From contig JAEUMK010000066.1 of the NCBI GenBank assembly GCA_016792565.1, positions 1 to 47,176 on the forward strand: DNA of 47,176 bases, written 5' to 3'. The translations under genes and the position numbers were made by a program. The notes below the pieces were generated by a model. The model searched no databases. It was not told the DNA's origin and worked only from the letters and a program-made list of their open reading frames with translations. Of the stretch, positions 10,622-14,143 are shown one piece after another. This DNA comes from Alphaproteobacteria bacterium. Lineage in GTDB: Bacteria; Pseudomonadota; Alphaproteobacteria; Micropepsales; Micropepsaceae. Every line of letters begins with the position of its first letter. Positions within the stretch are counted from its first letter, which is position 1.

Positions 10622-12013
10622 ATGACGCCGACCGTGCACAATCAGACCCGCCACTGGCAGGCGCTCGACGCCGCCCACCACATCCATCCCTTCAGCGACA
10701 CCGCCGCGCTCAACCGCGAGGGCGTGCGCATCATCACCCATGCCAAGGGCATCTATGTCTATGACTCCGAGGGCGCCCGGCTGCTCGACGGCATGGCGGG
10801 GCTGTGGTGCGTCCAGCTCGGCTACGGCAACGAGGAACTGGCGGAGGCCGGCGCCAAGGCGCTGCGCGAGCTCCCCTACTACAACCACTTCTTCAAGACC
10901 TCGAACCCCTGGACGATCGAGCTCGCCACCAAGCTCGCCCAGGTCCTGCCGGAGGGGCTGGAGCGCGTCCTCTTCGCCAATTCAGGCTCCGAGGCGAACG
11001 ATACGGCGCTGAAGCTCATCCGCTATTACTGGAACCTCAAGGGCAAGCCGAAGAAGAAGATCCATATCAGCCGCGAGATGGCCTATCACGGCGTCACGAT
11101 GGCGGCGGCCTCGCTCTCGGGCCTCACCCCCATGCATCCGCAATGGGATCTGCCGCTCGCCGGCTTCGAGAAGGTGCCGACCTGCTATTGGTACGCCGCC
11201 AAATCGGCCGGCTACGGCGACGTCTCGCCGGAGGATTTCGGCGAGCTGATCGCCGCGAAGCTGGAGGAGAAGATCCTCGCGCTGGGGCCGGACAACGTTG
11301 CCTCGTTCTCGGCCGAGCCCATTCACGGCGCGGGCGGCCTCATCTTCCCGCCCTCCACCTACTGGCCTGCAATCCAGAAGGTCTGCGCCAAGTACGACGT
11401 GCTGCTGCATGTCGACGAGGTGATCACCGGCTTCGGGCGGACCGGCAACTGGTTCGGCAGCCATACCTACGGCATTTCGCCCGACGTCATGACGATGGCG
11501 AAGGGGCTCTCCTCGGGCTACCAGCCGATCTCGGCGATCGCGCTGGGGCCGCGCATGGGCGACGCGATCGCCAATGCCAACGAGGAACTGGTGCACGGCT
11601 ACACCTATTCCGGCCATCCGGTGGCCTGCGCGGTCGCCCTGAAGAACCTGGAGATCATGGAGCGCGACGCGATCCCGGCGCGGGTCGGCACCGACACGGG
11701 CCCCTACCTCCAGGCTTCGCTGCGCGCCGCCTTCCAGGACCATCCTCTGGTCGGAGAAGTGCGCGGCGTCGGCCTGCTGGCGGCGATCGAACTGGTCGAC
11801 GACAAGGCCGAGCGGCGATTCTTTCCGGAAGTCGGCGAGGTCGGCACGATCTGCCGCAACCATTGCTTCCGCGAAGGGCTCGTCATGCGGGCGATCCGCG
11901 ACACCATGGTCTGCTCGCCGCCGCTCACCATCACGCGGGCCGAGATCGACGAGATGGTGGCGCTGGCCAAACGCTGCTTCGACCTGACGGCAGCCGACCT
12001 GGGCCGGACCTGA
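10622..12013 (+). CDS. Class III omega-aminotransferase (PLP)
   Basis: Encodes 463 aa. It transfers an amino group from an omega-amine or diamine (putrescine- or beta-alanine-like donors in the family) to pyruvate or a similar keto acid. Motifs include the N-terminal HPF...L, GSEANDTALKL (phosphate binding), the aspartate in HVDEVITGFGRTG and the PLP-binding lysine in MAKGLSSGYQP (Lys294), followed by GYTYSGHPVACA. The start at 10622 has GGAGG at 10610-10614 with 7-base spacing; the ATG at 10565 lacks one. It resembles SpuC/putrescine-pyruvate aminotransferases, but the substrate is not certain. It is monocistronic, followed by a regulatory region. Confidence 0.9.
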   Translation: MTPTVHNQTRHWQALDAAHHIHPFSDTAALNREGVRIITHAKGIYVYDSEGARLLDGMAGLWCVQLGYGNEELAEAGAKALRELPYYNHFFKTSNPWTIELATKLAQVLPEGLERVLFANSGSEANDTALKLIRYYWNLKGKPKKKIHISREMAYHGVTMAAASLSGLTPMHPQWDLPLAGFEKVPTCYWYAAKSAGYGDVSPEDFGELIAAKLEEKILALGPDNVASFSAEPIHGAGGLIFPPSTYWPAIQKVCAKYDVLLHVDEVITGFGRTGNWFGSHTYGISPDVMTMAKGLSSGYQPISAIALGPRMGDAIANANEELVHGYTYSGHPVACAVALKNLEIMERDAIPARVGTDTGPYLQASLRAAFQDHPLVGEVRGVGLLAAIELVDDKAERRFFPEVGEVGTICRNHCFREGLVMRAIRDTMVCSPPLTITRAEIDEMVALAKRCFDLTAADLGRT

Positions 12014-12032
12014 GCTTCGACGGCCAAGCAAG

Positions 12033-12079
12033 TTTCGTGACGAAATTGTATCAAAAATGGCACTGTCACGAACTTCGTG
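12033..12079. repeat. Nested inverted repeats, operator-like
   Basis: Two 13-bp palindromes built from the same half-site: TTTCG-TGA-CGAAA (12033-12045) and CACGAA-C-TTCGTG (12067-12079). In addition AAGTTtCGTGAC and GTCACGAACTT are inverted over ~25 bp. They lie 30-75 bp upstream of the -35 at 12109, where a transcription factor could act, and just after the aminotransferase stop. A hairpin in the aminotransferase transcript is an alternative; there is no T-tract. Confidence 0.45.
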
Positions 12080-12108
12080 CGATTTCTGGGGGTTGTTAAC
12101 GACGAATG

Positions 12109-12137
12109 TTGCAAACTGTGGCTTTGTTGCATATACT
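12109..12137 (+). promoter_or_regulatory. Sigma-70-type promoter
   Basis: TTGCAA (12109-12114), exactly 17 bases, TATACT (12132-12137). This is the best promoter match in the window, lying in an AT-richer stretch. Predicted start is at about 12144-12146, immediately before the structured region. Confidence 0.7.
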
Positions 12138-12144
12138 GAAAACT

Positions 12145-12277
12145 GAAGAAGGGTTGGTTGACCTGCGTTGCCCCCCGCTAGCGGGTTTGCCTTCTTCATT
12201 CGCCGGATTATCCCCTCCCGGCGTTGGCGCATCCCAGCGCATGGCGTCCGTCCCCCCAGGGCGGACGCCCTTTTTTT
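12145..12277 (+). ncRNA. Candidate small RNA or structured leader (~133 nt)
   Basis: A transcript from the 12109 promoter would begin at the base of a stem GAAGAAGG/CCTTCTTC (12145-12152/12190-12197) enclosing a CCCG-ctag-CGGG hairpin. Next comes CGCCGG/CCGGCG (12201-12206/12218-12223), with a pyrimidine-rich loop containing CCCCTC that resembles an anti-Shine-Dalgarno. Then come GCGC/GCGC (12227-12230/12237-12240) and a strong intrinsic terminator. The layout is that of alphaproteobacterial trans-acting sRNAs. Because the next gene starts 17 bases past the terminator, a cis-acting attenuator leader is the main alternative. No Rfam family was recognised. Confidence 0.55.
12243..12277 (+). terminator. 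Strong intrinsic terminator
   Basis: GGCGTCCG (12243-12250) pairs with CGGACGCC (12262-12269) over an 11-base loop. It is followed by C and seven T residues (12271-12277). It is the clearest Rho-independent terminator in the window. Confidence 0.85.
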
Positions 12278-12293
12278 CGAGGAGCGCCGGGCA

Positions 12294-12881
12294 TTGAGCG
12301 ACGACGAGGACTGGCCGGACGAGGCCGCCGACGACACGGCCCTGGTGCTGATCCCCCGCTTCATCGCGGCCGCCAGCGGACCGTTCTGGTTCTCGACCGT
12401 GGGCCAGCCGCTGCGTGGCACGATCCGCCGCGACGCACTGGCCTGGCTCGGCGCGCTCGGCTTTCCGCATGCGACGCCGATCGCGCTGCGCGACTGGCGC
12501 GAGGCCGCCGAAGCCGCCGAAGGCACCGGTATCGACGACCCGGCCTTCGAGACCGAGGAACAGCTGCGCGCGGCCCTGACGTCCGATGCGATCGACATCC
12601 ACGGCGAGGAAGCCGTCACCATCGTACTCACCCATGTCGCTGCCGAACTAGGCCCCGCCATCGGCGAGGCGGCGCTCAACGCGACGCGGGTCTGGGGTCT
12701 GGACGATTTCGGCCTCGTCAATGCAGCCGCCGGCGCCGGCGTCCAGGCGTGTCACAACGCGGCGCTGCTGCTGCTGGCCGGGCGGGCCGAGGACGACCAT
12801 CCCTTCGCGCTGAAATACCGCCTGTTCGAACGCGGCCGCTGGCCGATCGCGCTGATCGGCTCAAGCCTGCATCTGTTTTGA
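12294..12881 (+). CDS. Hypothetical protein
   Basis: Encodes 195 aa if started at TTG 12294, which follows GAGGAG at 12279-12284 with good spacing. The frame is open back to 12168, but that part would run through the terminator and the sRNA-like structure. The protein is acidic at the N-terminus (LSDDEDWPDEAADD) and continues with mixed alpha/beta sequence and a C-terminal FALKYRLFERGRWPIALIGSSLHLF. There is no signal peptide or membrane segment, and no family is recognised. Expression may depend on read-through of the terminator 17 bases upstream. Confidence 0.65.
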   Translation: MSDDEDWPDEAADDTALVLIPRFIAAASGPFWFSTVGQPLRGTIRRDALAWLGALGFPHATPIALRDWREAAEAAEGTGIDDPAFETEEQLRAALTSDAIDIHGEEAVTIVLTHVAAELGPAIGEAALNATRVWGLDDFGLVNAAAGAGVQACHNAALLLLAGRAEDDHPFALKYRLFERGRWPIALIGSSLHLF

Positions 12882-12892
12882 GGCGGTCGCCG

Positions 12893-12998
12893 CTAGAGCA
12901 CCATCCGAAGACGTGGATGCCCGTTTTTCGAAACGATGATGCTCAATAAGGAAACCAGGAGCCCCGTTCCGATTCCATCGGAACGGAAATGGCTCTAG
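12893..12998. repeat. Bipartite intergenic palindromic element
   Basis: The 106-bp element is bounded by CTAGAGC (12893-12899) and GCTCTAG (12992-12998). Its right half is a hairpin CGTTCCGAT-tcc-ATCGGAACG (12965-12985) ahead of GGCTCTAG; the left half contains AGACGTGGATGCCCGTTTTTCG. This composition matches a dispersed extragenic element I know from Hyphomicrobiales genomes (AGAGC...GTTCCGATTCCATCGGAAC...GGCTCTA). Only one copy is seen in the window. Its right end contains the stop codon of the minus-strand gene. Confidence 0.7.
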
Positions 12999-14143
12999 CC
13001 GGTGGCGGCCAGCGGGGCCGCCGGCTGCGACAGGCGGAACTGCTTCTCGAGGGAACAGATCGCCGCGGTCAGCGCGCACAGGATCTCGGCCGGCACGCGG
13101 GACTTGTCGAGTTCGCGCGTGCGGTAGCTCCAATAGCTCAGGATGTGCTCGACGATCGCGATGCAGCCGCCGAACCCGCTGACGTTCTTCGGCAGGTCCT
13201 CAAGGTAGCGCTTCAGCTCCAGCGTATCGCTGCTGGCGATGATCGTCGCGCGGCGCTGCGAATTGAAGGCCTGGGCGGCCGAGAGCGAGCGCTGATAGGC
13301 CCGGCCGATGAACCCCTTCAGCGACGCGAGGTGCTCCTCGACCAGCGAACGCGGATAGGTCTCGGAGAAATTGCAGCTCTTGACCGACGCAAGCTCGCCC
13401 AGCATCGCGACGAAGCGGCGCTGGGTGTCGAGAAAGCGCGTCTCGTAGAAGAGCGCCGCCTTCCAGGCGAAGGCGACGCCGGCCCAGCCCGCCTCGGCAA
13501 GCCCCATGGACCTGAAGAAGTCGGCCGCCTGCGGGCCGACCTCGTCGCCGAAGATCGACTCCACGAAGCGCCCGACCTTCGCCGGATCGGCGCTGCTCGT
13601 CGCCATGCGGATCAGCGGCGCCAGTTCCCGCGTGATATAGGCGCGGATTGCATCGTCCTCGAGCAGCGAGACCTGGAAATAGGCCGCCGGGATGCGAAAG
13701 GCGCTCGCGGCGAAGAGTTCGCGCAACAAGAAGAGATCGAGCGAGGGCGTTTCGCTCAGCCGTGCGAGGATCGCCGCATCGCGATCGATCTCGGCGCCGG
13801 AGACCCTCAAGCCGAAGGACTGGCGCATGATGGCCGGATAGGCGCGCTCGCCGATGAAGAAGGATATCGCGCCGCTGGTGATCGCGCGGCCCTGAAGCGG
13901 CACCAGCACTTTCGTCGCCACCACCGGGGCCTGGTCGAACATGTCGCGCTCGTGCTCGCGCAGCGTGTGCTTGAGAATGATCGATTCCGACAGGCGGCGG
14001 TTCTGGAAGAACGTCCCGGCCTCGTCGCCATGGCGCTCGCGCAGGCTGCGCGTCGTGGCATAGAGGTTGAGGATGCGCCAGTTCGACGGCGCCGCCGCGA
14101 GCCTCGCCATCTGCAGCGCGTCGGGTGAGTGACTGTTGTTCAT
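12995..14143 (-). CDS. Hypothetical protein, 382 aa
   Basis: Not recognised. It starts at ATG 14143 (MNNSHSPDALQ). The protein is soluble-looking and largely helical, with a central region carrying FFRSMGLAEAGWAGVAFAWKAALFYE and a cysteine-containing C-terminus. There is no signal peptide. The TAG stop (12995-12997) lies inside the terminal CTCTAG of an intergenic repeat, so the C-terminal tail (PAAPLAATG) may derive from, or have been trimmed by, insertion of that element. It lies downstream of the transketolase-like gene on the same strand, separated by 122 bp containing a palindrome. Confidence 0.75.
   Translation of the reverse strand: MNNSHSPDALQMARLAAAPSNWRILNLYATTRSLRERHGDEAGTFFQNRRLSESIILKHTLREHERDMFDQAPVVATKVLVPLQGRAITSGAISFFIGERAYPAIMRQSFGLRVSGAEIDRDAAILARLSETPSLDLFLLRELFAASAFRIPAAYFQVSLLEDDAIRAYITRELAPLIRMATSSADPAKVGRFVESIFGDEVGPQAADFFRSMGLAEAGWAGVAFAWKAALFYETRFLDTQRRFVAMLGELASVKSCNFSETYPRSLVEEHLASLKGFIGRAYQRSLSAAQAFNSQRRATIIASSDTLELKRYLEDLPKNVSGFGGCIAIVEHILSYWSYRTRELDKSRVPAEILCALTAAICSLEKQFRLSQPAAPLAATG

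Follow-up and report, generated by a model that had tools for sequence, protein, structure and literature searches.

Introduction

The Caulobacter crescentus RNA RusT (CCNA_R0199) is 118 nt long, is encoded between lolA and xth and folds into four stem-loops (PMC11005374). Its seed is the conserved loop of stem-loop 2 (SL2; nt 45–57, including C53), and SL3 is the Hfq-responsive site (PMC11005374). The rusT promoter is bound by NtrX, and RusT is induced by iron starvation or zinc (PMC11005374). RusT represses TonB-dependent receptors and ompW, and compensatory changes restore repression for two targets (PMC11005374). rusT has been described within the Caulobacteraceae only (PMC11005374), and our literature search found no paper extending it beyond this family. 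SisA-D/ar8, which has a C-rich seed, also represses TonB-dependent receptors (PMC12559287).

Here, we analyzed a stretch of 47,176 nt of alphaproteobacterial DNA (the window). Its segment 12109–12277 very probably encodes a trans-acting sRNA of the RusT family. This kind of RNA is already known; what is new is how widely it occurs, that its conserved SL1 loop may be a second seed, that the gene has moved away from lolA and xth, and that it is often linked to the gene at 12294.

A promoter, four hairpins and a terminator precede the gene at 12294

The features of the locus, all on the forward strand, are as follows.

12109–12137, +: sigma-70-type core promoter TTGCAA-N17-TATACT (read directly; the pattern recurs in homologues)
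12145–12277, +: sRNA gene of ~133 nt, very probably of the RusT family (fold, covariance models, covariation)
12145–12197, +: stem-loop 1, SL1 (fold, alignment, covariation helices 1–2)
12201–12223, +: stem-loop 2, SL2 (fold, alignment, covariation, comparison with RusT)
12227–12240, +: stem-loop 3, SL3, GCGC-AUCCCA-GCGC (fold, covariation helices 4–5)
12243–12277, +: intrinsic terminator with an 11-bp stem, loop CCCCA and T7 (sequence, covariation helix 6)
12294–12881, +: neighbouring gene (it starts with TTG, its relatives with ATG), outside the RNA

The promoter consists of a -35 element TTGCAA (12109–12114), a 17-nt spacer and a -10 element TATACT (12132–12137), and it was the only sigma-70-like site found within 11000–14000. 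Judged from the promoter and the first stem, the 5′ end of the RNA would lie at ∼12144–12146. The outer stem of SL1 has 8 bp (GAAGAAGG/CCUUCUUC, 12145–12152/12190–12197) and its inner stem pairs GACCUGC with GCGGGUU. In SL2, a CGCCGG/CCGGCG stem (12201–12206/12218–12223) encloses the loop AUUAUCCCCUC, which contains CCCCUC, and the seed AUCCCCUCCCGG spans 12210–12221. The SL3 stem pairs GCGC with GCGC (12227–12230/12237–12240). The terminator stem spans 12243–12269 and is followed by T7 (12271–12277), GAGGAG (12279–12284) and the TTG codon (12294–12296). An earlier reading of the letters alone (the sequence-only reading) had described the promoter, the 8-bp stem, the hairpin with the CCCCTC loop, the third small hairpin, the T7 terminator, GAGGAG and TTG, and each was recovered at the position given there. 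Its list of elements did not include the C-rich SL1 loop GUUGCCCCCCGCUA (12167–12180), which is as conserved as the SL2 loop.

The predicted folding energy of the RNA was -68.7 kcal/mol, compared with -55.1 ± 3.9 kcal/mol for shuffled sequences (z = -3.46), and none of 200 shuffles folded as strongly.

The promoter is kept along with the RNA. TTGNNN-N17-TANNNT lies upstream of 30 of 33 family members, compared with 1.2% of segments drawn at random from these loci. A spacer motif, TGTGNC, is kept in 27 of the 33 (4.8% in the comparison), and reads TGTGGC at 12117–12122 in the window. GTGGC also occurs near the -10 element of Caulobacter- and Maricaulis-type copies, at other spacing. Farther upstream, in the window (∼12036–12056) and at homologues (L011–L038), a conserved TGACA/TGTCA-type element is seen, which might be a regulator site; it takes the form GTGACA-N6-TGTCAG in the window's genus and ACTGTCATTAAAAA in Rhizomicrobium-type loci.

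The predicted helices show compensatory changes in relatives

Compensatory changes in relatives had been proposed as a check on the structure. They were present: among 72 homologues, 21 of 28 pairs had changed on both sides, a result matched by none of 500 shuffles, and 95.4% of pair cells held standard pairs. When the partner was slid by one base, pairing fell to 30–43%. In the terminator (helix 6), 9 of 11 pairs showed double-sided changes and the stem was kept in 98.6% of cells. The alignment of the 72 homologues was fitted to the model, so these figures lean towards it; what makes the result safe nonetheless is that pairing fell in the slid controls and that stems can be seen to have changed independently in a ten-homologue alignment. 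In that alignment, the CCCCCCGCU and AUCCCCUCCCG blocks were invariant and the stems variable. Among homologues, the loops UUGCCCCCCGCU (SL1) and AUCCCCUCCC (SL2) are nearly invariant.

The window RNA shares its SL2 with RNAs of RusT length at lolA-xth

With a second covariance model, R2, the RNA was detected around G477, a Caulobacteraceae/Hyphomonadaceae-type genome, in 49 of 60 family members and in 192 of 299 genomes of the order. Six of the R2 matches (L286–L291) are short copies of ∼117–123 nt in the order lolA-sRNA-xth; their genomes are presumably Caulobacteraceae, as gene order and RNA length suggest. Their SL2 is GCCGGAUCUAUCCCCUCCCGGC or a close variant, within a GCCGG...AUCCCCUCCCGGC hairpin, and the window counterpart is CGCCGGAUUAUCCCCUCCCGGCG. 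Counted from the match start in these copies, C53 falls in the CCCC of SL2. The seed AUCCCCUCCCGG is identical in the window and in five of the six (L286, L288–L291).

Since RNAs of RusT length at lolA-sRNA-xth share its SL2, we filed the window RNA as a RusT orthologue. Like RusT, it has four stem-loops, the last being an intrinsic terminator; the SL2 loop with AUCCCCUCCCGG and the third stem-loop are conserved, and the gene is usually present in a single copy. In several families, including those with the short Caulobacter-type copies, homologues of the window RNA lie between lolA and xth, as rusT does. There are also differences: the window-type RNA is longer (∼133–150 nt vs. 118 nt), its SL1 is larger and carries the conserved UUGCCCCCCGCU loop, a second C-rich loop that is missing from Caulobacter-type copies, and in the window's genus the gene has moved away from lolA and xth. 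The sequence-only reading could assign the RNA to no known family; this stands for Rfam, in which no family covered it at gathering thresholds or at relaxed E-values, and falls for the literature, in which RusT is a relative (PMC11005374).

Other described RNAs were compared and set aside. The Rfam matches weev_FSE, mir-4433 and ylbH were chance or repeat matches. The window RNA scored 21.9 bits with 6C RNA (RF01066; gathering 47) and 18.2 bits with suhB/ar8 (RF00519; gathering 41). SisA-D/ar8/suhB resembles it as an alphaproteobacterial sRNA with a C-rich seed, but adjoins an FGase gene (PMC12559287). CcnA (CCNA_R0094) has a CCCC loop that pairs with GGGG in mRNA 5′ UTRs, but it lies at the chromosome origin under CtrA control (PMC8959179), whereas homologues of the window RNA lie at lolA-xth. 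GsrN exposes a C-rich loop for pairing with G-rich leaders of mRNAs, but it is transcribed from a sigma-T (EcfG) promoter at a general-stress locus (PMC5869019), compared with the sigma-70-type TTGCAA-N17-TATACT of the window. In all, ar14, suhB, 6C, GsrN, CcnA, ChvR and PmaR were rejected on the basis of published descriptions and scores.

The RNA is widespread in the Alphaproteobacteria

When 61 genomes were searched at the DNA level, the locus turned up in each of the five members of the window's genus and in other genera of its family. A covariance model built on a hand-drawn structure (R1) recovered the RNA from 92 of the family's 96 genomes (59 of the 60 high-quality ones). Every one of the seven genera is represented, and each genome has a single strong copy; in the genome collection, the window's order consists of this one family. 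In a class-wide sample, ∼37 of 385 genomes matched R1 at E 1e-5, the strong matches being spread over several further families; among the weak class-level matches, some are unlikely to be true homologues. Scanning named genomes with a sequence pattern returned at least 118 stretches, nearly all from Alphaproteobacteria, among them SO-S41 (window's genus; AP024629.1:313044–313186), Rhizomicrobium electricum (window's family), Maricaulis, Hyphobacterium, Marinicaulis/Parvularcula and Hyphomonadaceae. On this sequence evidence, RusT appears to be much older than its published Caulobacteraceae range.

Weak class-level R1 matches of 30–47 bits, such as L180–L189 and L193–L194, were rejected as homologues, as the SL1 and SL2 motifs were not both present; they are probably other sRNAs or chance terminators. 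One of them, L194 (G031:C19; 35.9 bits), is a second, weak match in a genome that also holds a full copy, and is probably not a true paralogue. Four others (L181, L183, L189 and L193) have a layout of their own, with a UCCCCU-loop hairpin followed by a GGCGCCCGG...CCCCCC terminator, and are perhaps a separate C-rich sRNA family.

Gene order and alternative readings of the locus

Across homologues, the common order is lolA-sRNA-(homologue of the 12294 gene)-xth, and the upstream neighbour is most often the LolA gene. In the window's genus, the upstream place of lolA is taken by an AT3 aminotransferase gene; lolA and xth are not adjacent there, and neither is present in the window. The two arrangements are joined by bridging loci: L112 has the order ABH-AT3-sRNA-(12294-gene homologue)-xth, and L090 and L191, the latter from another family, have AT3-sRNA-(12294-gene homologue)-xth.

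The sequence-only reading had left open whether the element is a ∼133-nt trans-acting sRNA or a leader that attenuates the gene at 12294. In a leader, polymerase would normally stop at 12277 unless a signal let polymerase or ribosome continue. The spacing gives the leader reading some weight: the TTG lies only 17 nt past the terminator, so that a separate promoter for the 12294 gene would fall inside the sRNA. In addition, many lineages have a homologue of this gene (27–88% identity) directly 3′ of the RNA and on its strand. In other lineages, however, the RNA directly precedes xth, uppP or opposite-strand genes, and because the downstream gene changes in this way we reject attenuation as the main function. 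No conserved anti-terminator helix was seen, the terminator stem is kept almost without exception, and the conserved unpaired parts are the C-rich loops. A leader, or a mixed sRNA/leader form, is improbable, although there may be some read-through control, since the 12294-gene homologue does follow the RNA in several families; of the two original options conservation and compensatory changes favour the trans-acting sRNA.

Two further readings have a still smaller claim. The C-rich loops of SL1, SL2 and the terminator resemble the anti-Shine-Dalgarno end of 16S rRNA, as a protein-sponging or ribosome-mimicking RNA that lacks specific mRNA targets might; the precedent of RusT, which base-pairs with defined mRNAs such that compensatory changes restore repression at two targets (PMC11005374), makes this very unlikely. 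Membership in the rhizobial ar14/NfeR1 family (RF02344) is, if anything, less credible still. NfeR1 also has several hairpins with anti-Shine-Dalgarno-like C-rich loops, and the window RNA gave a full-length match to it of 20.3 bits. That score is far under the gathering threshold of 58.8, however, and the family was reported for none of the homologues up to E 2. Moreover, NfeR1 carries CCUCCUCCC in each of three hairpins and lies at rhizobial loci (PMC10746234), whereas the window RNA has four hairpins and lacks CCUCCUCCC, and the gene order is that of RusT in many homologues.

The protein encoded at 12294–12881 had no Pfam or NCBIfam match. Its AlphaFold model (pLDDT 90) is a helical fold, and the sole standout fold match was one chain of the Rhs2-CT/RhsI2 toxin-immunity complex (8cm0, 9t38), with Z 11.6 (next entry 4.2) and a Foldseek E-value of 0.33. 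The two showed no sequence match, and we treat the likeness of the modelled fold as a lead.

Receptor ribosome-binding sites as candidate targets

TonB-dependent receptor genes were defined by Pfam Plug, and their ribosome-binding sites (RBSs) were scored for GGGG within 20 nt of the start, on stretches of each genome. In the window's genome (G000), GGGG was present in 9 of 17 receptor RBSs and in 27 of 168 other genes (p = 0.0012); this enrichment was tested after it had caught attention. In SO-S41, for which the rule was set in advance, the figures were 19 of 30 receptor RBSs vs. 24 of 150 (odds ratio 9, p = 3.6e-7). AGGA was not enriched in receptor RBSs. When the two genomes were taken together and compared with long genes only, the proportions were 28/47 and 21/134.

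Two alphaproteobacterial control genomes with no detected copy showed a weaker bias in the same direction (7/14 vs. 22/93 and 5/14 vs. 18/105), so that the receptor GGGG signal is not specific; as target evidence, the enrichment is suggestive. Receptor genes also have stronger canonical Shine-Dalgarno pairing, which accounts for some of the pairing energy (eS was lower as well). When five members of the genus were searched strictly for GGGAGGGG-N1-9-ATG, no orthologous gene with the site was shared between them. By analogy with RusT, it is on the whole likely that the window-lineage RNA represses TonB-dependent receptors through its loops, a claim that we have lowered because the control genomes differ only weakly.

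Proposed working and evolution of the RNA

In the proposed scheme, RNA polymerase would start near 12144–12146 at the sigma-70 promoter and stop at the terminator at 12277. The four hairpins would hold out single-stranded C-rich loops, AUCCCCUCCC in SL2 and here also UUGCCCCCCGCU in SL1, which may pair with G-rich RBSs (GGGG, GGGA, GGGAGG). The RBSs paired would most likely be those of TonB-dependent receptor and other envelope genes, whose translation would be blocked. Hfq might bind at SL3 and/or the U-tail; SL3, the site of the Hfq response in RusT, is present and conserved here. Hfq binding, control by NtrYX, the iron response and repression are predicted from RusT.

These data suggest that (i) RusT, which has no Rfam entry, is a widely kept alphaproteobacterial sRNA, since almost all genomes of another order and members of several further families carry it; (ii) the covariation, invariant loops and gene order provide a ready seed alignment; and (iii) the SL1 loop is a candidate second seed, with a link to outer-membrane receptor control indicated outside Caulobacter. 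We regard as evenly balanced the fuller account in which RusT is ancient and shared by a large part of the Alphaproteobacteria. On this account, the ancestral RNA carried two separate C-rich seeds (SL1 UUGCCCCCCGCU and SL2 AUCCCCUCCC) and preceded the gene for a small conserved protein with a fold like the Rhs2-CT/RhsI2 chain, and the Caulobacter copy would since have been reduced, losing both the SL1 seed and this neighbouring gene.

Downstream of the 12294 gene, an imperfect inverted repeat, GAGCACCATC ... GATGATGCTC, occupies 12895–12946 between convergent genes that end at 12881 and 12995.
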